From: Aldrovandia affinis
Taxonomy: Eukaryota > Chordata > Actinopteri > Notacanthiformes > Halosauridae
Assembly: GCA_029706075.1 (NCBI GenBank)
Contig: JAINUG010000116.1
Span: 783,501 to 847,500 of the forward strand
DNA: 64,000 bases
Direction: 5' to 3'
Shown here piece by piece: positions 10,299 to 62,441 of this stretch. A model generated the notes under the pieces. The model saw only the letters and a program-made list of their open reading frames with translations. It was not told where the DNA came from and made no database searches. A program made the position numbers and the translations under genes. The first letter of the stretch is position 1. Every line of letters starts with the position of its first letter.

Positions 10299-10545
10299 GA
10301 ATGTGGTTCTGTGTGGCTCAGTAGGTAGAGCATGGTTCTTCGTGGCTCAGTAGGTAGAGCGTGGTTCTGTGTGGCTCAGTAGGTAGAGCATGGTTCTGTG
10401 TGGCTCAGTAGGTAGAGCACAGCGTTGGCAACCCTTAGGTTGTCGGTTAAATTCCCACTGGGACCACATATACTGAAAAGAGTATGCATTCACTACTTTG
10501 GATAAAAGCGTCTGCTAAATGGTATATATTATATTATATTGTATT
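10299..10545 (+). mobile_element. SINE-B with four head units
   Basis: Four 29-bp units carrying GGCTCAGTAGGTAGAGC (box A) run from about 10305 to 10420. A single box B region (GGTTAAATTCCCACTGGGAC) and the tail GGATAAAAGCGTCTGCTAAA follow, ending in a TATATT-rich run. Confidence 0.9.
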
Positions 10546-11409: not shown

Positions 11410-11857
11410 GCCTGCATGCTAACAGACACCGCTGCTAACAGAACCCTGTATGCTAACAGACACAGTTGCTAACATAACACTGTGTGCTAACATACACCGC
11501 TGCCAACAGTAGGCTACTCTGTATGCTAACAGACATGGTTGCTAACAGAACCCTGCATGCTAACAGACACAGTTGCTAACAGACGCAGTTGATAACAGAC
11601 GCAACTGATAACAGTAGGCTACCCTGCATGCTAACAGACACGGTTGCTAACAGTACCCTGTATGCTAACAGACACGGTTGCTAACAGTACCCTGTATGCT
11701 AACATACACAGTTTGCTAACAGACGCAGCTGCTAACAGTAGGCTACCCTGTATGCTAACAGACGCAGCTGCTAACAGTAGGCTACCCTGTATGCTAACAG
11801 ATGCAGCTGCTAACAGTACTCTGCATGCTAACAGACACGGTTGCTAACAGGCCCAGC
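11410..11857. repeat. minisatellite of GCTAACAG-based units
   Basis: About 440 bases of imperfect tandem repeat. Units of variable length combine CTGCATGCTAACAGACAC or CTGTATGCTAACAGACAC with GGTTGCTAACAG or GCAGCTGCTAACAGTAGG. It begins about 30 bases downstream of the stop codon of the - strand terminal exon, so it probably lies in or just past that gene's 3' UTR. Confidence 0.93.
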
Positions 11858-11885
11858 TGAATGGCCCGGGCCCCGGCTCGCTCAC

Positions 11886-24704: not shown

Positions 24705-25106
24705 TTCCCGTGGCTCCTGTAGCTCAGTTGGTAGAGTATGGCACTGGCAACGCCGAGGTTGTGGGTTCGATCCCACGGGACTACATGTCCGTTGTTCAGA
24801 TGGGACGGTAAAAACCGAGGTCCTGACTCTGTGGTCATAAAAGATCCCATGATGCTTTTCGAAAGAGTAGGGTGTTATCCTGGCCAAATTCCCAACCAAA
24901 AATAATATATATACATGGAATGAATTAATTCCCTCGCCTCTCCACTGTGTATCTGATGTGCAGTGAGTTTGTACTGGCGCGTGCACCCAGTTGAGTGCTG
25001 CACATTGGTGGTGGTTGAGGTGAGTTTCCCCTATCATCATTGTTGTTGTAAAGCACTTTGGGTCCCTTGAAAGGCGCTATATAAATCCAATGTTCAATTT
25101 GAAACA
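24705..25106 (+). mobile_element. SINE-F inserted in the LINE
   Basis: A tRNA-like head (GTAGCTCAGTTGGTAGAGTA, box B GGTTCGATCCCA) starts near 24715. A body with CATAAAAGATCCCATGATGC and a tail TGTAAAGCACTTTGGGTCCC plus GGCGCTATATAAAT follow. The LINE protein frame is interrupted here and continues downstream, so the SINE inserted into the LINE. Confidence 0.85.
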
Positions 25107-27847: not shown

Positions 27848-28402
27848 TATATCAGCAGGGTAATATCCCAGGTGGGGAAGAGTAATGCTGCTTTGACATT
27901 CATAATGTCGATTCCCATAAATTTTTAAACACGTTAGTGATTAGGACTTCAACACCCCGCATTTAAAATCACAGTGTAGGGACAAATGCTTTCTTTATGT
28001 AACCTTGTTCCAGTTCTTATCACAGAATGACTCCCAAGCACGTCGAAACTCATCCCTCACCCTGCTAATAGTCAGTCATATCAAATGCTTCCCTTTCTTC
28101 AATCCATTTCTAATCAACGGCTGACAGACGTTCACCAACACAAAGAGGGCTTTCTTGCACTTTGCATGCCGTCTCATTAGCAAGCGGTAGCCGCTGGGCA
28201 CAACCCACAAGGGTCTGAGTGGAGGGATGTGAGGTGAAGGAGTCTACTCAATTCACAGGTCATACCAAGAGGACCGTCGTCTTCAATCCAAACACAATCT
28301 ATTCACGCTGGTGCTTCGTCACGCAGCTCTTCAGCAGACTTCGTTAAAAGGTTTACCAGTAAATGTAGACCTGTGCATTTGTTTATATACAAAACTATAC
28401 TG
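27848..28402. other. intergenic, nothing recognised
   Basis: No gene or repeat signal seen. Confidence 0.4.
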
Positions 28403-29040
28403 GTCGAGCGTGCTTCTGTGTGTCTCAGTAGGTAGAGCGTGGTTCTGTGTGTCTCAGTAGGTAGAGCGTGGTTCTGTGTGGCTCAGTAGGTAGAGCGTGG
28501 TTCTGTGTGGCTCAGTAGGTAGAGCGTGGTTCTGTGTGGCTCAGTAGGTAGAGCGTGGTTCTGTGTGGCTCAGTAGGTAGAGTGTGGTTCTGTGTGGCTC
28601 AGTAGGTAGAGCGTGGTTCTGTGTGGCTCAGTAGGTAGAGTGTGGTTCTGTGTGGCTCAGTAGGTAGAGCGTGGTTCTGTGTGGCTCAGTAGGTAGAGCG
28701 TGGTTCTGTGTGGCTCAGTAGGTAGAGCGTGGTTCTGTGTGGCTCAGTAGGTAGAGCGTGCTTCTGTGTGTCTCAGTAGGTAGAGTGTGGTTCTGTGTGG
28801 CTCAGTAGGTAGAGCATGGATCTGTGTGTCTCAGTAGGTAGAGCGTGGTTCTGTGTGTCTCAGTAGGTAGAGCGTGGTTCTGTGGCTCAATAGGTAGAGC
28901 GTGGCACTGACAATGTTTAGGTCGTGGGTTCAATTCCCACTGGGACCACATATACAGAAAAATGTATGCATTCACTACTGTAAGTCGCTTTGGATAAAAG
29001 TGTCAGCTAAATGGCATATATTACCTGATATTACCTGTAT
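28403..29040 (+). mobile_element. SINE-B with 17 tandem head units
   Basis: Seventeen copies of the 29-bp head unit (core GGCTCAGTAGGTAGAGC) occupy about 28410-28900 with very low divergence (mainly GGCTC/GTCTC and GCGTGG/GTGTGG variants). The last unit is shortened. A single box B (GGGTTCAATTCCC) at about 28926 and the tail TCGCTTTGGATAAAAGTGTC follow. The unit contains a match to the RNA polymerase III box A (TGGCTCAGTAGG), so the copy carries up to 17 potential box A elements for one box B. Confidence 0.95.
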
Positions 29041-33947: not shown

Positions 33948-34465
33948 AACATAAGAACACAGAATGAAGGGAACAGGCAGTTCGGCTCGTCATCCAGGCT
34001 CATCATTTACCTGCAGTCTAGAGAACGTCCAGCACTGCGTCAAGCCTGGACTTGAATACCCCAAGTGTCTCTGCCTCCACTACATGACCTGACAAGCTGC
34101 TCCACTCATTGACAACTCCCTGTGTAAAAAAACAACTTCCTGATGTCAGTTCAGAATTCCCACCTGTGCCCTTGTGCTCGGCTAACTGAACTGAACTCAA
34201 CCTGAGAAGTATTTTGTAGTTCACTTTGTTAATCCCTTTTATGAATTTAAAAAGTGATTCTGTGTGGCTCAGTTGGTAGAGCATGTTGTTGGCAACGCTT
34301 AGGTTGTGGGTTCAATTCCCGCTGGGACTACATATACTGAAAATAGTATGCATTCACTACTGTAAGTTGCTTTGGATAAAAGCGTCTAAATGCTAAATAT
34401 ATTATATTATTATTATATTAAAAACATAAATCAAATCCCTCCTTATTCTCCTCTTGCTCAGCTTG
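33948..34465 (-). pseudogene. CR1-like LINE 3' end, interrupted by SINE-B
   Basis: On the - strand a frame ending near 34018 encodes the end of a CR1-type ORF2 (FFTQGVVNEWSSLSGHVVEA then FKSRLDAVLD). The + strand edge ACATAAGAACACAGAATGAA is the complement of the element's 3' terminus. Antisense LINE sequence resumes after the SINE as CCTCCTTATTCTCCTCTTGC. The copy is 5'-truncated. Confidence 0.78.
34256..34418 (+). mobile_element. SINE-B with a single head unit, inserted in a CR1 LINE
   Basis: One head unit (GGCTCAGTTGGTAGAGCATG), box B GGTTCAATTCCC and tail GCTTTGGATAAAAGCGTCTA. It lies inside the antisense CR1 fragment and is therefore younger than it. A one-unit copy shows that the basic SINE needs no array. 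Confidence 0.87.
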
Positions 34466-46914: not shown

Positions 46915-47463
46915 GTAACTGTTGGCGAGCCAAGTAAATAACCGCTAACGCCCTAGCTCACAAGTTAGCGAACTACACTGTTAATGTTAAACTAACGTAG
47001 TGCTAGCGATGGTTAATAACAAACTGAAGTCTAAGGTTAACCGATGGCTGGCTAAGGTTACTCGCATTGTTGTGTGGCTTCCCTCGCTGGCTTGTGTGCA
47101 GATATCACTGACGTGATCGGGTAACATTAACGCTAACATTAACGTTGCTAGGTAGCTAGCTGTCCAGGACCGTGGATTTGGTGTCACTGAATTGTGACTT
47201 GCCCACCTTCATAGATGACTAATGTGTGCTAATAAGGGGTGACTCGACACAAGCGATCGGTATTTAAACATGGTCGCTATTGCACAGCAACGTAACAGTT
47301 TGCCATTTGTAGCTAGCTAACTTTAGCGATGAAAAGACGTTTTTTTTCCATTCGACCTGGCGAGTTACGGCTGGCTAACATTCGCTGGCTGACTGTAACA
47401 TTAAACTTTGCTGTAACGTGGACGTAACCTTACCTAGACCGGGCGAACTGTCTTTAAGCACGA

Positions 47464-47608
47464 ATTACCTTAATGTTAACCACCTAACGTCAACTACCTT
47501 AATGTTAACCACCTAACGTTAATTACCTTAATGTTAACCACCTAACGTTAATGACCTTAATGTTAACCACCTAACGTTAATGACCTTAATGTTAACCACC
47601 TAACGTCA
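47464..47608. repeat. 29-bp minisatellite, five units
   Basis: Five nearly identical units containing CCTTAATGTTAACCACCTAA followed by CGTTAAT or CGTCAAC. It lies about 550 bases into the presumed first intron of cep350. Confidence 0.95.
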
Positions 47609-50578
47609 GCTGACGTCACGTTTGTCCAGTAGCGTTAGCGTCTGGATGAGCAAACGTTGGCTAATCGGCTTAATAATAACCGCAAATTTGGCAAGTCCTA
47701 GTCGGTCAACTTTCTTATGTCGTTGGATTCAGAGTGCTCCCCTGGTGACGTTCATCAAAAGTCGTCGTAAAAGAGAATTTACATGTACCTAGTTAAATAT
47801 ATGATAATAACAGACACCTCAATCCCGAAAGCCTAGCTTGCTAGCTAACTTTGTCACGCAAGTAAAACTGTCTGAAAACATTAACATTGAGATCTACATT
47901 GTGTCATTAGCTGATTCGTCCAAGAAGTTAAATGGCTTTCTTATTGTTGTGTTTTCGAACGTTTTATGTAGTTACGTAAATTTACTCTTGCTACGTTTAT
48001 AGTACCATATCTACAAATGTTATGTTAATTTATTTAAAACATTTATAGGTATAAAACATTACGCTTGCTTGGTTGCTACGCACAAACCACCTAGTCACGC
48101 GAAGATCCATTGATTGGCAGACGTTGCTTCCTTCAGCACAATGCACGAACTTTTAAGCTTTCATTAAATCAGTCCCTGTAGTGTGCCTGCTTGATCGTAT
48201 CGTAATTTAAACCCTTGAAGTCTATCACTGCACTTAAATCTTATAAATAAAGTCAATAAGGTTAGAAATTGGTGAAAAGCACAGGGTTAACATTTCAGCT
48301 TGTCATTACATTTTGCTTATGCTTATACATAAGAGACTTCCCTTAAATAAGATTACCTCTAATATTATTTCAATTTGATTTGTTTCATTATTCCATGTGG
48401 CCAGTGACCATCTAGGTCGGTAAGATATTAACTGGAAAAAATAGATGGAAACTGGTCAAATAGCTCACTCTACTTAAAAAGTCTGGGAAAATGTAAGAAA
48501 AAAACAACAAAAAACTGATCAAATCAAGCAGTTGAGTGTACTACCATTACTAACAAATTGACCAGCTTTCTGGCATGTATATTAAGTCTTTTAACCAAAC
48601 ATTGCTTACTGGCACCAGCAGCATCTGCAAATTGAGTTTGTCCGTACAGACAAGGGTCACAAAGAGTATTTCCCCCCACAATTCAATCGTCACAGGAGCC
48701 TGTCTTCGTTGGAATGTCATTATTGCAGCAGTAGAGAAATCAGGAAACTGAGCATTCATCCTTGAGTCATCAGTGAAAATTAATGAGAGAATAAATATCA
48801 TGTGTGAGTGGGAACCGTGTCAGTCAGTGAGCACTTTGTTCCTTTTATTTAAAGCTGTGGGAACGGTCCCCTGTCGGTTCCCCTAATGCCAGAGGAAGGG
48901 GCGTGGCCTGTGAGTGAGGGTAGACGGGACACCCTTATCTCATCTCTTTATTTTGGTTTCGCTTTGTGGCGTGTTCAGAGGGGACAGGTTGTACTTGGTA
49001 CATTAGCTAACGGAGTCAGTTGTTACTGTCTGCAGTTTTAGCATGTTAGTAACTCTGAGTTACCCCTAAATGGTTTTCAAGTGAACATGACTGATCATTG
49101 ACCTCTTTCTGTCATCATTAGCCTCACTCAAAACCCGTAGCATGTTGTTGTCTGCATTTACAGTAACTGAATTAAATGTCTCATAAGCAGAGCCTCTCCT
49201 GGGGTTATTTCAGTGGAATTCAATTTCAAACACGTAGCGCAGACAAATTGATGTTTAGAAGTTTATTGTGATGTCAGCATACAGTTGACTGCTGTACGGA
49301 GTTCTCATTTCCTCAGCGGTTAACTGCAGATGCACTCTGCAGAAGCACTGTGATGTTTCAAGTGTGTTTAAGTGTGTTTGTGTACTACACAATAGGCCCC
49401 AGAGTTACAGTACTGTGTATGTTGTTGTTTTTTCTGAGACCCTGTGTTTTATTGAACGCACTAAATGTATGAATTTATGGCTGTGACCTTTTGTTGATGA
49501 TGTTCCTGAGATGTCATGTGGAGTAGCATAATCACATGTATTATTATTATAGCAAGGGGAAGGTGGGTTGCTGCTTTTATATATGTATATGTATATACAC
49601 ACATACATGTATATTTACACACACACCCAAGCTGTACCTGTTTCCTTTGAAATTTAGATGTTGCACCAAGGGACACTGCACGTCTTTCGAAAAACAAATG
49701 TTGCATGAAGTTTACATTTCTAAGCTCATGCTTTGCAGTTAATTTAAAGATATTTTTAATCGTGCTATTTACTGTTTATCATTATTTGTTTCGAGCGGTT
49801 TCAACACCGCATCATGTGAGAATGCTGCTTTGTATTTCCGCCTTTTAAACGAACAGCATCTCTTGAATGTAATTTTAGCCATTTTGACTGAAAGTTGTCT
49901 GAAACTAACTATGAATAATGAAATTAAAAAATGAGCTCAATTAATGCATTGCAGAATCGTTATGGTGGGCTGTTGGCTGACAAAAAGAAAGGGGCATGGT
50001 CAAGGGTGGGGTTATCACTTATAGCTTGTTATCAAAACGTGGAAGTTAGTGGTCTTCATAAGAATGAAAAAACATGTTGATTCAGTAGAATTTCTAATCT
50101 GCCCCTTTACAATCCTGTGCTTTGTGATTTAAGCAAGTTCCGTATTATGAGAAGATGTAGGCCTGTCCTCCTTCATTAATCTTGTGTCCTCTAAGATGTC
50201 CTGGAGGATAGCCATGCATTGCGTAATCAATTTGATTGCGAATTGTCCACAGCTTCGTCTTTTGTCGGCAAAATGTGCCATCGTTATTGTTACACTTCAG
50301 GATCTACATTTAAATTAAATAGGTTATTTCAGTGATTACTGAAAGGGAGAAGGGCAATTTAAGAAACCAAAAACATTTTGTCAGGTGTTTCATATACAAC
50401 TGCAAGACAGAGAATCAACTCTTCCAAAGCTGTCTCCTTGTCTGTCATGCTTTTGGGCTCCTTTCAGAAGGCACAATCACCAGCTTAACTGTCTTTTGTT
50501 TGTAGCTTTTAAAACGTGAGGCACGTTGATAGCAAGAAACACCTATATGTGAAAGAACCCATTGTTTTGTATATTTTG

Positions 50579-50745
50579 TGGTTCTGTGTGGCTCAGTTGG
50601 TAGAGCATGGCGTTGACAGCGCTTAGGTTGTGGCTTCGATTCCCATTGGGACCACATATACTGGAAGAAAAAAATTATGCATTCACTACTGTAAGTCACT
50701 TTGGATAAAAGCCTCTGCTAAATGGCGTATGTTATGTTATATGTG
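50579..50745 (+). mobile_element. SINE-B with a single head unit
   Basis: One unit (GGCTCAGTTGGTAGAGCATG), GGCTTCGATTCCCATTGGGA as box B region and a tail GGATAAAAGCCTCTGCTAAA. Confidence 0.88.
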
Positions 50746-54629: not shown

Positions 54630-57600
54630 GTCAGTCTCTTCTCCAAGCCTCCCATTGGCCGTGTGCAGTGGGTCCCTCTCAGTGTATAACTCCAATAATA
54701 ATAACAATAACGACCTTCAGTAATACTGAGGACTGGTCATGCCTTGGTAGCCATTGCATGACTGAAGGAACTCCTTTTGCCATTGCATAGATTTGTTATT
54801 ACCTCATACTTACTCTGTCTTTACCTTATACTTACTCTCAGTCTTAATATGTGGTATAAGTGGTTCTGTGTGGCTCAGTAGGTAGAGCGTGGTTCTGTGT
54901 GTCTCAGTAGGTAGAGCGTGGTTCTGTGTGGCTCAGTAGGTAGAGCGTGGTTCTGTGTGGCTCAGTAGGTAGAGCACAGCGTTGACAACGCTTAGGTTGT
55001 GGGTTCAATTCCCACTGGGACCACATATACTGAAAAATGTATGCATTCACTACTGTAAGTCGCTTTGGATAAAAGCGTCTGCTAAATGGCATATGCTATA
55101 TATTATATATTATAATATATCAGCATCTTATTAGACAGCAACCTGCACTGCAAAAAGATCAGATCTGTTATCACCTCATGCTGGGCCCCACATTCTCATT
55201 AAAACACCATTTTCGGTTGTTGTTTTTTAAAGTGAATTAATTGAAGTCATCAAAGGCCTGTTTGAACTGTACACCTTGTATTTATGTTAAAAGTATTTGT
55301 GTCTTTATTTCAGAGCTGTCGGGTGCATTCAAGAGTTTGAATCAGACCAAAGCCGCAGTAAGTAAATGCTCCTGGCTCGTAGACGGTGGCACATAAGTGG
55401 TACGCCAGTACGCATTCGCGTCCTCAAACGCCAATGCCGTCCTCAAATGTTAATTTCATACCAAGCAAGACGACAAACTCTTGAAACATACGCGACTTTC
55501 TAAGTTTGATCGGTCCATCACTGCTAAGTTAATTAACTTACCAGTGATAGACTGATCAAACTTAAACTCGCGTATGTTTCAATGGTTTGTCGTCTGGCTC
55601 GGTACGCGATTAACGTTTGAGGACGCGAATGCGTACTGGTGTACCACTTATGTGCAGCCCTGGCTTATAGTCATCCACTGAAAATGGAGACTCATTGTGA
55701 TATTTGCCATTGGCTCTGAAGTCGGTTGAAAGCGAATGCCTCGGGTGTGTGTCTAACACGGCCGGCCGCTGTCTCTCTGTCTCTCTGTCTCTCTGTCTCT
55801 CTGTCTCTCTGTCTCGCTGTCTCTCTGTCTCGCTGTCTCTCTGTAGTTGCGGCACATTGAGAACCGCCTGGAGGCCACTCCTGGCTCGGGGGTGTTGCTG
55901 GACTCTGTCATGGATACCAAGAAGACCTCGAGCGGGGCGACCAGGAAGGTTAGCCGAAGAGGTGAGGCGGACTGGGTGAACGGGCTCCACTGAGGATGCC
56001 CATTGAATGAGCGTGGTGTAAATTTACAGATAACTGAAGTGCTTTCACAAACGAGGTCTGATCAGGCTGACCTGTAACATCGGAGTAATGTAAATTAGGC
56101 TGCATAACAAAGAACACAAGAATGTTTTATGATGAGAACATGGGCAGTTCAGCCCATCTAGGCTCGTCGTTTTGCACAGCAGTCAGGAGAGTATTGGGCA
56201 CTGTCACAATGGAGAGAAGAGGCCTCCCGGGTGGTCTAGCTGTTACAACATTAGACGCTGGCCTCTGCGACCGGGGTTTGATTCCATGGGCCGCGCCAGA
56301 GTCGGCTCTGGCTGGGAGTGCCACTAGGGGTCGACGATTGGCTGTCCACCCCAGGGAGGCGGGAGGGAAGCCGACAGGAAGTTCGCTGCGCACAGGAGTG
56401 GCTCTGGAGTGCCGGAGTTAAGGTCAACGGCCTGGCGAGTGGCGTCTCGGAGGAGGCGATACTTCGCCTTTGCCACTGCCGGTCTCAGGGCTACGGCAGC
56501 AAACTCACAATACGAGGGGGGGATTGACATGAAAAAGAGAGGGTGTAATTGGCTCCTATATTGGGAGAAAATGGGAGAAAATCTGAAACTAATTCTTTAA
56601 AAAAAAAAAATAAAATATAACTAAATAGAAGAATGTGTGTGCACACACATAATGTATATTTGGAATAGATCTTTATAGTTTCACATAAAAACCATGTACG
56701 TTGTACGCCGGCGTCTTCAGGGTGTGCTTGTGTGGACGTGCTCCAGGACTAACCCGTCGTGTCTCTCTGCAGAAGGGCGGCACGCAGACCACGGCTCGCT
56801 CTCAGGCTCCGCCTCCAAGTCTGGAGCGCGGAGGCGCCGCAGCCCGGAGAAGGGCTCCCGCAGCCCCCTCAGGACCACCACGCTGGAGACCAGCCGCGTT
56901 TCCGGAGCAAAGGCCAGTGGTTCTGCTCAGTAGGTGGAGTTCAGAGAGAGCGTGGTTCTGTTTCAGTAGGTAGTGTGGTTCCTACAGGTCAGCAAAGCAT
57001 GTCAGTGGTTCTGTGTGGCTCAGTAGGTAGAGCGTGGTTCTGTGTGGCTCAGTAGGTAGAGCGTGGTTCTGTGTGGCTCAGTAGGTAGAGCGTGGTTCTG
57101 TGTGTCTCAGTAGGTAGAGCGTGGTTCTGTGTGGCTCAGTAGGTAGAGCGTGGTTCTGTGTGGCTCAGTAGGTAGAGCATGCTGCTGACAACGCCTAGGT
57201 TGTGGGTTCAATTCCCACTGGGACCACATGTACTGAAATATGTATGCATTCACTACTGTAAATTGCTTTGGATAAAAGCGTCTGCTAAATGGCACATATT
57301 ATATTATATCAGCATTCTCTCTTGACGGCAGTGTAGTGTAATGGTTAGGGGGAACTGGGCTGGTAACTCAGAGGTTGCTGGTTCGATTCCCTTGTGCCCT
57401 TGAGCAAAGGTACTTAACCTGAATTGCTTCAGTAAAATATCCAGCTGTATAAATGGATTGTATGTAAAGAAATGAAAACTATAATTCGCTCTGGGTAAGG
57501 GTGTCTGCTAAATGCCTAAAATGTAATGTAAAATGCTCTCTCGTTCTGGGACCAGAAACAGACTTTTACAATGTCGTCATTATCCGCCAGTTTATACACT

Positions 57601-60600
57601 GGCCCTGTGCTGTGAAATGAATGTCCACAGATTAATGTTTAACAGCGTCAAATAGTTTTGCTCTCTTTTGCTATGCATGGGATTATGGGTAGAGCGATTA
57701 GTTTGTCTGACCGAATAAACCTTGCAGGCAACCAGTGGGTATGAACGCAGATTATAGCCAATATATTTCCCTCACATTCACACCCTCTAGTGTTGAGGTA
57801 ATAGCGCTGCCTAACGCTGCTTGCAAGCTCTGGAGCAGAGCTATTCAAATCCAGGCCTCGAGGGCCGCAGTGTCTGCAGGTGTTTGCTCCAACCACGCAC
57901 TACACCACCTGATTTCACTAATTGGTTTACCTCCTTGGTCCAGGAAGTGAGCTAATAAGTGTAATCAGGTGGTGTCGTGTGTTGTTGGAGCAAATACCTG
58001 CAGACACTGTGGCCCTCGAGGCCCGGATTTGAATAGCCCTGCTCCAGAATCATATGACCATGGAGGAGCGTCATTTCAGACACACATAGAAGTTGTGACT
58101 CGGAGAAGGTGCATATGAATTCCCCATAAAGTGTATTTTTTTGGTTTTCATTTAAATTGAATAATACGGAAATGTATTGTGTAGAAACCCATTTGTTGTA
58201 ATCATGTGATCAATTAAAGTATTAACGGAAACATATTCTTGACATGTCAGCATTTGTGAGCAGCAGTAAATGATCATGCTGCTATGTGATGAGGTCTGCT
58301 AGCTAAGTCCCTACCCTGGCTAATGTTGTACGGTTCAGAAAACCAAACGAAACATTGTTGAATATTAAGATGAATAATGTTGCCCCAATACCACCCCTGT
58401 TCTGACATAATCCAAACATGTTTTAAGGTTCTTCATTTTATAAAGTTCAACGATATCGATAACCTTAGAGCTCTAATTAGCTAGCTACACGTTAACTGAC
58501 TGGCTAGCTAGCCAACGTCAGCTAGCCAGGCTCCTACATCTACTGTTTGCTAGGCGTCCTGTAACCTTCACTTGTTCTTGTTGTTATTAACCATTAGCCA
58601 ACACAACCTAGCCTGTTATTAATCAAGGCTAATATAATGCTCCATTATCAATACTATTTTATATGCAGTTTCGTGTTTAAGTTTGTGTGTCAAAACAGCT
58701 GGCTAGTTTGCTAGCAATGGCTAGCTAAGCATGGTTGCCAAAAAATACTGTCAAATACGTTGTTTATACGGCTATATTAGTCGGCTAGTAGAGTTGATGG
58801 TTGATATGCTTGATAATTCGAACATGCACGTTTGAGACATACGGAACTAAAAAAATATAACTTTTGAAAAAGTACTAGGATAGTTCACAATTGTGACACA
58901 AAAGTCATTGGCTGATTCATTGCATGATGAACAACCGCTAATTGCTCATTTGTCCAAGAGAAGACGTCATTATACCGCAGAGCCATTTAAGTGCATTATT
59001 TGCTGTGAGCTAATTTCTCACAATACAACAAAATATCAGTATCAGCATTGGCCTTAAAATAATAAAAATAAAAATTTAATTATCCATATCGATTGACCTC
59101 TACATTGTTTGTGACACCACACACGTGCATGAGCTTAGTGCCATCAACTAGATTCTTTGATTGACACCACATATCAATAATAGTTCAGATTTATCCACTC
59201 TATGCATACAGCATGCAGGCTACCCCAGCACATGCCTCCAGGCCACATTTGACACTGCCATGATTTGGGTGTTACCCAGGCTATTGGGTGCATCATGCAT
59301 GAGTGCACTAGGCAGATGCGGTTATGTGGTTCTGTGTGGCTCAGTAGGTAGAACATGAGGTAGAGCGTGACGCTGACAACGCTTAGGTTGTGGGTTTGAT
59401 TCCCACTGGGACCACATATACTGAAAAATGTATGCATTCATTACTGTAAGTCACTTTGGATAAAAGCGTCAGCTAAATGGCATATATTATTATATATTAT
59501 ATTATGAATGCATGTATTCATAAAGCAAAGCTTCAGCTTATTGCCAGTGGACTTGCCAGGACAAATGGGACTGAAGTGTATAATATATTTTAAATATTGT
59601 GATATTTATTGTGTTGTGTGGCCCCACCATGTGTGCGCTGTGATCTCCTTTAGTTTGCAGTCAGTCTTTAAAAGTGGACAAGAGCTTGCTAATGAAGTAG
59701 GTCCTCCAGAACAGCTTGGTTAGACTGTTAACTGCCGCTTCTGGTCTTGAAAGGAATGATGACTGTTCAGTCATTTGTTGTCGACAAGTTCTATTTCATC
59801 AGTATCAGGATACGTTCCTGTTTCTGCTCAAATACCATTCCGTGTTTGAGGATGTTACTTTGCACAAACTCTGTGTGCTGTGGGCACACCAACGTTATCT
59901 CACATTGTTTGAAATTCCAACCTTGAGACTTTGTCTTTCATTATCTCCTCACGACCAGTCTTTCAGCAAGCTAACATGGAAACGTGTTGTAGAGGCGTAC
60001 AGAACCAGAAGCCTCCTTGCACAATGATAAGTCCTCTGTTGTGGCCTTTAAATTGTTCAGTGTTAGTGTTTTGTGCGAAGCTCACGTGGCACCCGTCATG
60101 TTTGAAAGCATTAAAAACGACATGCAGAAAGTCCTGCTTGTTCCTACATGTGTGTGTTTTCACCACAAAGTATTGAAATAGCTCACAGTTGGACCACTGT
60201 TCAGTGTTGTTTTTCTCCAGTTTGAACAGTCACATTGTGACCTGGAAGATTTGGCATTTGCTTCCAGTGTGTGCCATTAAGCCTTATTGTGGTTTGCAAT
60301 GGACCCTAAAACATGACAAAATAATGATAAAATATCTATCGTTTTGAGACTCACACACACACAGACCGTGGGAGAGAGTGAGAGGGACTGGCATAATAAT
60401 ATAATATATGCCATTTAGCAGACGCTTTTATCCAAAGCGACTTACAGTAGTGAATGCATACATTTTCAGTATATGTGGCCCCAGTGGGGATTGAACCCAC
60501 AACCTAAGCGTTGCCAATGCTGTGCTCTACCAACTGAGCCACAGAGGCATGCAAGGCGTATACCTTAAGTTAGGATACGCAAGGTCTGTGTGCAATGTGC

Positions 60601-62441
60601 TGTTTGTCTGTCCAGCAGCTAAATATAGTGATGCAAGGGCAAGCTCATGTATGCACACAGATACTATAATACCAATATGTTTCTTTAAATTGTGAGAACT
60701 TGACCCTTTGTTCCCATAGTGTTTCCCCTTGGCCCATAGTGCCGTTGTAAGTACACTGTGGTTAACACTTTGTTGTACGTTGCTCTGGATAAGAGCGTCT
60801 GCCAAGTGCCTGTAATGTAATGTAATGGTTGTTGTTTTCAGGGAGGCGACCCCACCACCCCTCACTCCTCACCTGGAGTCCCTCAGCCTGCTGTCGGACA
60901 GGCCCCCCTCCCCTGCGCGGGACGCGCGCCTGAGCCAGCTGGTGTACGAGCGCGACACTCGGGACCAGCAGAGCCGCGACCCGGACAGCACCCAGTCCTC
61001 AGCGCCGGACAGCACCCTGGTGCGCTACCTCAACGACCGGCCTGCCCTGAGCGCCCTGCGGCGGCCAGGAGAGGGCGCCGGAGCCCCCCGTCCCCCCCGC
61101 GACTGGACGGACCCCGAGGGGCGGACCCAGGCCCACGAGACGTCGCAGTCCTCCAGTCCCGGCTCCGCCTCCCAGCGGCTGGAGAACCTGCGGCGCCGGC
61201 AGCCCGACGACAAGCTGGAGAAGCTGAAGGAGCGAATCCGCCGGCAGCGAGCACCTGGAGGAGGCCGCGGAGAGGGAGAGGCTGCTGGGATACCTGCAGC
61301 AGCCCGTGGGCCTGGGCGCGGCCGGCGAGACGGCGTCTGCAGCCGCGCACGCCCCCAAAGTGCGCAAAGTGGCCACCGCTCCTCCCGCGCCCATTTACAG
61401 AGGTGAGGGATGGGGTTAGGGGGAGGATTATTTATTGATTGGATTGAATTTATTAAGAACTGGTGGTTCTTTTTAATAAATCACACTGGACTTTAAGTTA
61501 AATATGAATTGTGAATCTTGTTTACATTTACATTTGAGGCGTTTAGGCAGAGCGTGGTTCTTGTGGCTCAGTAGGCGAGTGTGGTTCTGTGTGGCACAGT
61601 AGGTTGCATTTCTGTGTGGCTCAGTAGGTAGAATGGCGCCATTTATACAGCTGGATAATTTTACACTGAAAAATGTATGCATTCAACTGTAGTCGATTAC
61701 TGAAGCAATGACTTCAATTAATTCACTTAAATAAAATAACAGATTAATTATTTTATAATTATTTTTAAATCACTGGACTTTTAAGTTAAATATGGATTGT
61801 AAATCTTATTTACATTTACATTTTAGGCATTTATCAGATGCTCTTATCCAGAGCGACTTACACAGTTTACATTTCTTTTACGTACCATCCATTTATACAG
61901 CTGGATATTTTCACTGAAGCAATGACTTCAATTAATTCACTTACATAAACTACCTAAAATGGTGTTTTAATGACAATGTGGGGCTCAGCATGAGGTGATA
62001 ACAGATCTGATCTTTTTGCAGTGCAGGTTGCTGTTTAATAAGATGCTGATATAATATATAACATATTCCATTTACATTTTAGGCATTTAGCAGACGCTCT
62101 TATCCAGAGCGAGTTACACAGTTTACATTTCTTTATACAGCTGGATATTTTCACTGAAGCAATTCGGGTTAAGTGCCTTTAGCTCTAGGGTACAACAGCA
62201 GTGCTCCACCTGGGAATCGAACCAGCAACCCCTGAGTTACAAGCCCAGTTCCCCCCTCACCATTACACTACACTGCCAGCCCTATTTTATGTAATACATT
62301 ATTTTTTCTGCTTTCCCCTTGAACCAGGTTTCAACCCCAGCGAGACGAAGATCCGCGCCCCGGACGGGAGAGTGTGGCGTGAAGCGGAGCTCCAGGAGCT
62401 GAGCAGAGAGGCGTACAGAGACCTGTCACTGCAGATGACTG
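54553..62441 (+). CDS. cep350: cep350 5' coding part, centrosome-associated protein 350 (partial, with lesions)
   Basis: CEP350 is a large coiled-coil protein of centrosomes and centriolar satellites that anchors microtubules with FOP/FGFR1OP and supports centriole stability. Six coding exons are visible (54569-54629, 55314-55357, 55847-55961, 56773-56929, 60842-61402, 62329-62441), about 350 codons of a human protein of roughly 3,100 residues. Blocks matching my recollection of the human protein are QTKAALRHIEN, DSVMDTKK, SRSPLRTTTLE, VRYLNDRPALSAL, KLEKLKERIRRQ, KVRKVATAPPAP and GFNPSETKIR. Splice phases agree at every junction once one lesion is allowed. These are the low-complexity N-terminal region; the later coiled coils and the CAP-Gly domain lie outside the window. 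Lesions: an inserted stop at the end of exon 5 and a frame change in exon 6. Either the allele or assembly carries errors, or splicing compensates in part. Confidence 0.93.
54843..55115 (+). mobile_element. SINE-B with four head units in cep350 intron 2
   Basis: Four 29-bp units from about 54860, then GCACAGCGTTGACAACGC, box B GGGTTCAATTCCC and a tail with TCGCTTTGGATAAAAGCGTC, ending in a TATATTATAT run. Confidence 0.92.
55314..55357 (+). CDS. cep350: cep350 exon 3
   Basis: 44 bases between TTTATTTCAG and GTAAGT. It completes a Glu codon and encodes ELSGAFKSLNQTKAA, aligning with the human SWDALSQTKAA region. It ends in phase 0, matching exon 4. Confidence 0.88.
55389..55655. mobile_element. 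267-bp palindromic MITE in cep350 intron 3
   Basis: The outer arms GCACATAAGTGGTACGCCAG and CTGGTGTACCACTTATGTGC are inverted repeats, as are CGCATTCGCGTCCTCAAA and TTTGAGGACGCGAATGCG and the inner ACGCGACTTTCTAAGTTTGA region. The centre is AAGTTAATTAACTT near 55533. The left arm has a short extra copy of GTCCTCAAA. It fills over half of the 489-bp intron between exons 3 and 4. Confidence 0.9.
55771..55846 (+). repeat. CTGTCTCT microsatellite forming the exon 4 polypyrimidine tract
   Basis: About nine CTGTCTCT-type units run into CTCTCTGTAG, the acceptor of exon 4. The splice acceptor's pyrimidine tract is therefore itself a microsatellite, expected to vary in length. Confidence 0.93.
55847..55961 (+). 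CDS. cep350: cep350 exon 4
   Basis: 115 bases encoding LRHIENRLEATPGSG, DSVMDTKKTSSGATRKVS and RR, closely following the human LRHIENKLEVAP and DSVMDTKKSS blocks. Donor GTGAGG at 55962. It ends in phase 1. The open frame read on the other strand (Arg/Glu-rich) is a microsatellite artefact. Confidence 0.93.
56105..56215 (-). mobile_element. CR1-like LINE 3' terminal fragment
   Basis: AACACAAGAATGTTTTATGA, GGGCAGTTCAGCCCATCTAG and GGCTCGTCG parallel the + strand edge of the CR1 fragment at 33948-34030. It lies in cep350 intron 4. Confidence 0.65.
56216..56612 (+). mobile_element. SINE-C copy in cep350 intron 4
   Basis: Nearly complete: head GGTCTAGCTGTTACAACATT, body and a tail AATTGGCTCCTATATTGGGA with a poly-A-like end. 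Several long open frames on both strands inside it are shadows of its GC-rich body. Confidence 0.92.
56773..56929 (+). CDS. cep350: cep350 exon 5, 3' end altered by a SINE-like insert
   Basis: Acceptor CTCTCTGCAG at 56772. Encodes EGRHADHGSLSGSASKSG, RRRRSPEKGSRSPLRTTTLE and TSRVSGAK, matching human SRSPLRATTLE. A 21-base segment (56913-56933, GCCAGTGGTTCTGCTCAGTAG with an in-frame stop) then precedes VEFRE (56934-56948), which is also in human CEP350. Removing the 21 bases restores the human spacing between TTLE and VEFRE exactly (8 residues). A donor GTAGGT at 56930 inside the insert gives the right phase (2) for exon 6. The presumed older donor GTAGGT at 56966 gives the same phase. Which donor is used is unknown. 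Confidence 0.75.
57003..57310 (+). mobile_element. SINE-B with six head units in cep350 intron 5
   Basis: Six units with GGCTCAGTAGGTAGAGC from 57003, then box B GGGTTCAATTCCC and tail GCTTTGGATAAAAGCGTCTG. Less regular unit-like pieces extend left through 56950-57000 into the exon 5 end. Confidence 0.93.
57325..57535 (+). mobile_element. SINE-A copy directly after SINE-B
   Basis: Head GCAGTGTAGTGTAATGGTTA, box B GGTTCGATTCCC, shortened body and a tail with TCGCTCTGGGTAAGGGTGTC. About 25 bases separate it from the SINE-B tail. Confidence 0.88.
57830..58046. mobile_element. hairpin MITE, complete copy
   Basis: The two halves are inverted: CAGAGCTATTCAAATCCAGG and GCCTCGAGGGCC on the left pair with GGCCCTCGAGGC and GGATTTGAATAGCCCTG on the right. 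The inner parts (CACCTGATTTCACTAATTGG against GTGTAATCAGGTGGTG) also pair. A half copy lies at 16438. Confidence 0.9.
58047..59320 (+). other. cep350: cep350 intron 5, unassigned AT-rich part
   Basis: Contains GCTAGC-rich pieces at 58300-58780 and ATCCATATCGATTGACCTCT near 59080, resembling 30215. The element boundaries are unclear. No coding signal. Confidence 0.4.
59325..59505 (+). mobile_element. SINE-B copy with a damaged head
   Basis: One head unit with a partial second (GGTAGAACATGAGGTAGAGC), box B GGGTTTGATTCCC and tail CACTTTGGATAAAAGCGTCA. Confidence 0.88.
59506..60389 (+). other. cep350: cep350 intron 5, nothing recognised
   Basis: Open frames up to 103 codons (59716-60027) are present, but no domain or splice pattern fits an exon of cep350. 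Confidence 0.4.
60390..60545 (-). mobile_element. SINE-B, single unit, reverse strand
   Basis: Tail complement CCATTTAGCAGACGCTTTTA, box B complement GGGGATTGAACCC and head complement CTCTACCAACTGAGCCACA. Confidence 0.9.
60717..60829 (+). mobile_element. L2/SINE-A type tail fragment
   Basis: GCTCTGGATAAGAGCGTCTG and AATGTAATGTAATG units end just 12 bases before the exon 6 acceptor, so a retroposon tail supplies the sequence next to the splice site. Confidence 0.7.
60842..61402 (+). CDS. cep350: cep350 exon 6, contains a frame change
   Basis: Acceptor TTTTCAG at 60841 follows a short T/G stretch. The exon encodes EATPPPLTPHLESLSLLSD, VRYLNDRPALSAL, SASQRLENLRRRQPDDKLE and KLKERIRRQ, matching human NDRPAIDAL, SQRLDILKRRQ and KLEKLKERIRKQ. 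Around 61245-61255 the frame must change: the initial frame continues as APGGGRGEG, whereas another frame gives EHLEEAAERERLLGYLQQ and then KVRKVATAPPAPIYRG, which matches human and joins exon 7 in phase 1. A one-base surplus or two-base loss explains it. The exon is very GC-rich, so a sequencing error is plausible. Donor GTGAGG at 61403. Confidence 0.92.
61540..61700 (+). mobile_element. scrambled SINE-B head and SINE-A body fragment
   Basis: Three diverged head units (GTGGCTCAGTAGG, GTGGCACAGTAGG, GTGGCTCAGTAGG) are followed by TTTATACAGCTGGATAATTT, which belongs to SINE-A, and then AAAATGTATGCATTCA from SINE-B. A mosaic of the two families. Confidence 0.7.
61815..61935 (-). mobile_element. 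SINE-A tail and body fragment, reverse strand
   Basis: TTTAGGCATTTATCAGATGC, CTTATCCAGAGCGACTTACA and TTTATACAGCTGGATATTTT are present; the head is missing. Similar sequence at 61500-61530 and 61700-61790 suggests a local duplication. Confidence 0.8.
62069..62285 (-). mobile_element. SINE-A copy, reverse strand, before exon 7
   Basis: Complete reverse copy from GCATTTAGCAGACGCTCTTA to the head complement CCATTACACTACACTGCC. It ends about 43 bases before the exon 7 acceptor-adjacent border. Confidence 0.9.
62329..62441 (+). CDS. cep350: cep350 exon 7
   Basis: 113 bases between TGAACCAG and GTGAGAACA. Completes a Gly codon, then encodes FNPSETKIRAPDGRVW, REAELQELSREAYRDLSLQ and MT, closely following human FNPSETKIRTPDGKVW and SRELYRDL. 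It ends in phase 1. It is the last cep350 exon recognisable in the window. Confidence 0.95.

Follow-up and report, generated by a model that had tools for sequence, protein, structure and literature searches.

In the fish Aldrovandia affinis, the 29-bp head of a tRNA-derived SINE, which carries a box-A-like motif, is repeated in tandem at many loci, and we regard these arrays as probably a SINE-derived minisatellite that grew after insertion and was homogenised between loci. The window is the whole 64-kb stretch of DNA that was analysed (C180:783501-847500), and the assembly searched comprises 1.22 Gb in 2,576 contigs. This explanation is supported because arrays are regional, a T variant at unit site 14 (T14) is pooled among loci and unlinked to the adjoining SINE body, units are uniform, units at array edges are diverged, and some arrays show block periodicity.

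The longest array in the window consists of 17 in-phase 29-bp units at 28410-28900, each box-A-like, followed downstream by a single box B and a single UnaL2-type tail. TRF calls it at 28402-28904 with a period of 29, 17.4 copies, 95% matches, and a score of 894. All parts of the locus lie on the forward strand. Sixteen units are full (28410-28873, consensus GTGGTTCTGTGTGGCTCAGTAGGTAGAGC), and the last, 17th unit (28874-28900) has 27 bp and adjoins the SINE body. TRF, the sequence, and Rfam agree with the 17 box-A units before a single box B and tail that the initial annotation had described. At the 5′ edge, where the TRF call begins (28402), an 8-nt remnant of a further unit is found at 28402-28409 (GGTCGAGC, compared with the unit 3′ end GGTAGAGC). 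Site 14 is T in place of G in five of the 16 full units at 28410-28873, namely the 1st, 2nd, 13th, 15th, and 16th. Together, the last unit and the body form a tRNA-like structure (28876-28948) that matches Rfam RF00005 with 60.1 bits and is tRNA-Val-like according to ARAGORN. Motif scoring used TRGYNNARNNGG, which we take to be the box A consensus; by this measure the first box-A-like motif of the array is at 28421 and the last, TGGCTCAATAGG, at 28883-28894. The only box-B-like motif of the locus, GGTTCAATTCC, was placed at 28927-28937 with what we assume to be the box B motif. The 54-nt UnaL2-type 3′ tail at 28967-29020 (RF00436, 63.3 bits) is presumably the recognition site of an L2-clade LINE. 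With a tRNA-like head containing box A and box B and a 3′ end apparently in common with an L2-clade LINE (RF00436), the element has the features of a tRNA-derived SINE, and the proposal of such a SINE with a box-A-containing 29-bp head is thus borne out by both Rfam matches and by ARAGORN.

Other family copies in the window carry 1, 3, 4, or 6 units, confirming the variable unit number reported earlier. A copy with three units (2337-2423), body, and tail lies on the reverse strand at 2217-2423. On the forward strand are two copies with four units, at 10303-10540 (units 10303-10418) and at 54860-55095 (units 54860-54975, site 14 reading G,T,G,G), a copy with six clean units (57005-57178) and degraded unit-like sequence upstream at 57005-57309, and a degraded copy with about three imperfect units at 61544-61698 (array near 61544-61632). 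Single-unit copies with the CTCAGTTGG head type are found at 34254-34410 and 50578-50742 on the forward strand and at 60401-60546 on the reverse strand, and a single-unit CTCAGTAGG copy at 59326-59490 on the forward strand contains a short internal duplication that is partial. By eye, six of the seven window copies with CTCAGTAGG heads have arrays (one of the six degraded), while all three CTCAGTTGG copies are single; this family count leaves out a tRNA-Ala-like element at 24713-24784, which has no UnaL2 tail and probably represents another tRNA-derived SINE or an older one. The window holds 25 exact unit-unit junctions. In GC content and other tandem repeats it is not clearly distinct from a sample of contig C668, and a Pfam scan of four of its eight reading frames of at least 130 aa gave no match at E 0.01. 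A further minisatellite of period 29 bp, five copies of AATTACCTTAATGTTAACCACCTAACGTT at 47463-47606, has no sequence relationship with the SINE head, and a nested complex minisatellite with TGCTAACAGACACAG units and periods of 16, 34, 39, 73, and 105 occupies 11411-11859.

Genome-wide, exact unit-unit junctions with an upstream unit of the CTCAGTAGG type number 42,416, and a reversed control pattern gives none. Junctions with an upstream CTCAGTTGG unit number 337, or ~126 times fewer, yet CTCAGTTGG heads are as numerous: exact head-body junctions amount to 5,469 for CTCAGTTGG and 5,112 for CTCAGTAGG (10,581 in sum). Age, too, can explain this shortage. A 60-base probe of two units plus body, allowing up to 3 mismatches, finds 975 places, and 16 loci picked among the 100 places listed have between 2 and 28 units. 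Much longer arrays exist as well. In L064, on the 39-kb contig C2536, units fill all 4 kb fetched (n = 140), and L065 (C1882:492200-494900) has 88 units and ends mid-unit, with no SINE body in the next 13 bases fetched; L065 is perhaps an orphan array, and by eye it shows a repeated T14/G14 block.

Arrays had been described as always at the 5′ edge and always in phase. This is accurate for most, as 34 of 45 aligned stretches have their array 5′ edge within unit positions 1-5, and "always" is too strong, as the 8-nt remnant at 28402 illustrates. Two of the 11 off-phase stretches, L064 and L066, are clipped by the ends of the fetched stretch; the other off-phase edges are those of the 28402 locus, L035, L039, L063, L065, L069, L079, and the window copies at 10303 and 57005. 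Flanking repeats of at least 8 bp occur in just 2 of 39 loci, compared with 1.1% of shuffled pairs, and target site duplications are weak overall.

The distribution of arrays is strongly regional. Contigs C1 and C2 make up 35.1 Mb, or 2.9% of the assembly, and contain 99 of the 5,112 exact CTCAGTAGG head-body junctions but only 7 of the 42,416 unit-unit junctions, all seven at one locus; arrays therefore do not occur wherever single copies insert. Among hand-picked C1 and C2 loci, all 17 with a visible head are single-unit, and the 18th copy is incomplete. Two of these contigs' single copies, L048 and L053, have zero substitutions at the scored body sites. In the C668 sample (twenty 10-kb blocks, 200 kb), six family copies cover box B and there are no exact unit-unit junctions; C668 does bear arrays near 7.76 and 8.79 Mb. 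On C224 (9.70 Mb), a 3.6-Mb segment internal to the contig (2.14-5.69 Mb) contains all but one of the 15 array or T14 loci. The first 100 of 204 telomere-repeat places are on 11 contigs, including C180, C1035, C1435, and C1995, which bear arrays or T14. The listed places are mostly interstitial, and the C1995 tract is at ~260 of 264.7 kb. Short interstitial (TTAGGG)n is also seen on array-bearing contigs at C180:1473799-1473864 and C1435:322509-322580.

The T14 variant provides a marker for exchange. Site 14 of the unit is either G or T, with T14 in 114 of 425 units (27%) in 27 arrays of at least 5 units, and both forms coexist in 26 of the 27; ~5% of the T14 variance lies between loci. In samples outside arrays, T14 makes up ~1% of heads. 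Last units with T14 are found at 244 places genome-wide, one of them on C1 and none on C2, and for C1 and C2 together this one compares with 99 head-body junctions, the T14 pattern being the stricter one. Among CTCAGTTGG heads the count is 38 vs 5,469, and the T14 rate in arrays is ~39 times higher. Both of these comparisons reject T14 as a plain mutation hotspot.

If the array variant and the body were inherited together, T14 loci would be expected to differ from others in their bodies. Body haplotype classes are 40/18/38/3 in 99 T14 loci and 50/21/27/1 in 99 C1/C2 loci (p = 0.24), and T14 and body are thus unlinked. Head site 21, in contrast, is tied to the same body site (29/56 vs 3/81 on C1, p = 4e-11). 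A body ~20 bp from the head unit is therefore linked to a subfamily marker and unlinked to an array marker, which fits the exchange of units between loci and is not what clonal retrotransposition of multi-unit elements yields. T14 alters the third base of what we take to be the box A consensus, breaking it, and on this ground T14 is unlikely to have spread by retrotransposition. The assumed consensus is intact in 286 of 422 units and absent in 136; it is therefore unlikely that arrays are kept as promoters, and this counts against a selected promoter array. Because 7 of the 14 T14 loci fetched are single-unit (L071, L073, L074, L076, L077, L078, and L079), the T14 set is not purely one of arrays. 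Three of these seven are on contigs with arrays among those listed (C591, C613, and C1335), and T14 single-unit loci may represent arrays that collapsed, heads altered by conversion, or a T14 form that transposes.

Units vary less than the bodies next to them. In 28 array loci, chosen by hand from best-match or exact-match lists, units differ from the consensus at 1.34% of positions (121/9048, leaving out sites 1, 14, and 29, the last unit, and any unit with over 6 mismatches), compared with 4.3% for adjoining bodies and 5.3% for the bodies of 18 single loci; L030 was dropped from the comparison for its broken body. At unit sites 2-13 the difference is 1.9% in array units (79/4224) and 5.4% in 17 single heads (11/204). 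Some of the divergence among bodies may reflect subfamily variation that they inherited. Singleton variants in a set of 60 bodies amount to 1.5% per site in array bodies, 2.3% in single, and 2.1% in T14 single bodies, and because this private rate is close to the unit value, the gap in uniformity between units and bodies may be smaller than it looks. No variant private to a locus is in the majority at any site in 32 arrays (sites 1, 14, and 29 excluded), which does not fit arrays grown from a resident head that had aged. Units at array edges, not counting last units picked by pattern, have diverged further than those inside (38/1605, 2.4%, vs 94/9087, 1.0%; p = 4e-5), as expected if exchange works less well at edges.

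At site 14, adjacent units show no excess similarity (0.634 vs 0.657 expected). Block periodicity has p < 0.05 in 5 of 27 arrays (combined p = 0.0017 over 25), so local block duplication is at work as well. The T14 share varies from array to array (p = 4e-4), unit variants apart from T14 are common to at most 5 loci, and L039 has a locus-specific variant in 4 of its 13 units. Two candidates were set aside. A unit order anchored at the body and common to loci was suggested by G,T,G,G and G,G,G,T,G,G, which resembled nested truncations, and in the larger set the site-14 strings, compared by eye, have no common order; the idea that in-phase lengths stem from a multi-unit source with alternative Pol III starts was dropped for the same lack of common order.

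Taken as a "SINE family with a variable-number promoter array", the initial annotation holds in part: the tRNA-derived SINE, the box-A unit, its variable number, the 5′ position, and the mostly in-phase arrangement all stand, and a multi-unit head that transposes family-wide is not supported. Single copies of this head type are present on C1 and C2 and in the C668 blocks, but arrays are rare there; T14 shows no linkage to the body; and units are more uniform than bodies, with the caveat of the private variants.

On our preferred explanation, a tRNA-derived SINE with an UnaL2/L2-type tail would insert single-headed, as seen on C1, C2, and in the C668 sample. The first 29-bp duplicate probably arose by misalignment of GTGG at position 1 with RTGG at position 30, which would give a 29-bp unit beginning at the SINE 5′ end. 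In certain genome regions, CTCAGTAGG-type heads would then expand into arrays at the DNA level, and arrays at separate loci may trade units through ectopic conversion, unequal exchange, or circular array DNA reintegrating into a resident head. Dispersed arrays would in this way draw on a common pool of unit variants, whatever SINE body they adjoin, as is seen for T14, and local block duplication operates too at some loci. Counting against this explanation are the T14 share that differs between arrays, the restriction of other variants to at most 5 loci, the lack of likeness between adjacent units, the T14 single-unit loci, a private body rate near the unit rate, and the hand-picking of array loci.

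Multi-unit SINEs may instead themselves retrotranspose, an L2-type reverse transcriptase recopying the 5′ 29 nt or jumping between RNAs at the unit, so that in-phase mixed arrays form at insertion and are later lost or selected against outside some regions. We consider this unlikely, and it keeps some weight because it covers phase (34/45 stretches), random unit order, and unlinking, since template jumping likewise separates head from body. Also in its favour are the two-unit L036, where a duplication of at least 22 bp flanks array and body, the closeness of unit divergence to private body divergence, and the existence of T14 single-unit loci; some of the latter are on contigs without arrays among those listed, which adds slightly to the weight of retrotransposition. 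Its weak point is regional confinement, with one array locus on C1 and C2 despite the substitution-free single copies L048 and L053 there. It must also contend with the damage that T14 does to the assumed box A and with the shortage of junctions for the equally numerous CTCAGTTGG heads, which age also explains. A more specific form, in which the reverse transcriptase of the partner LINE builds arrays at insertion, seems decidedly unlikely. Here the cDNA end would re-anneal from GTGG (position 1) to RTGG (position 30) of the same or another SINE RNA, adding 29-nt promoter units to the 5′ end much as telomerase does; elements with several box A motifs would start Pol III at several phased sites, and arrays would survive only in some regions.

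Ordinary local slippage, with every array grown alone from its resident head after insertion and zero exchange between loci, would account for the block repeats that some arrays show (by eye in L065 and L032), for the L039 variant in 4 of 13 units, and for unequal T14 shares. However, unit identity within a locus (0.979) is hardly above that between loci (0.976), T14 and G14 occur together in 26 of 27 arrays, a private variant of the resident head is in the majority in 0 of 32, and T14 is ~39 times as frequent in arrays as in CTCAGTTGG heads, all of which makes slippage alone very unlikely. An assembly artefact or repeat collapse might be suspected from the 140-unit array on a contig of 39 kb; with arrays of 2-28 units inside megabase contigs, and with flanks that differ by eye, it is extremely improbable.

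Several known systems resemble these arrays in part. Eel UnaSINE is an UnaL2-tailed tRNA SINE, and SINEs of this kind (RF00436) share with ours the UnaL2-matching 3′ tail and a tRNA-like head, whereas here the heads are in tandem. Arrays of 5′ monomers in the LINE-1 promoter are likewise promoter units in variable number at the 5′ edge of a retroelement; they travel with transposing elements, unlike the present arrays, in which T14 and body are unlinked. Tandem repeats from tRNA-derived retroposons are reported to occur in the newt and in plethodontid salamanders, and, judging by the titles cited in PMC10702118, there, too, tRNA or SINE sequence was made into tandem DNA.

The closest known kind is found in squamate reptiles, whose SINE-derived satellites (sSats) are described, in the passages available from PMC10702118, as having units of ~70-290 nt and a mainly subtelomeric location. 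As in those passages, the tandem unit in A. affinis is part of a tRNA-derived SINE, and one longer end unit runs on into the SINE. Loci are many and dispersed, some with very many units (975 places; 140 units in L064), and they cluster regionally. Units are alike within and between loci (0.979 and 0.976), as in homogenised sSats, together with the unlinking of T14 from the body. The differences from that description are the unit, which here has 29 bp, lies at the 5′ end, and contains box A only, and the host, a fish with another SINE family. The arrays are thus best filed, on what these passages describe, with squamate sSats, the much shorter box-A-only 5′ unit and the many short dispersed arrays being new here. 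Simple repeats lie upstream of some SINE copies in Coilia (PMC6951006), and PMC3292006 describes a 5-bp motif at the 3′ end; the passage seen from each mentions no head arrays. Among the matches listed from open-licence PMC papers, there was no description of a SINE with a box-A array.

For the biology of SINEs, these results carry a caution, in that repeated SINE heads need not mean transposition or promoter selection. In the A. affinis genome, one satellite family is represented by roughly a thousand scattered arrays, most of them short (975 places with up to 3 mismatches), each on a SINE insertion that may serve as an age tag. How a SINE gives rise to a satellite, and how scattered loci exchange units, thereby become directly measurable, and the head-body linkage test needs a genome sequence alone.
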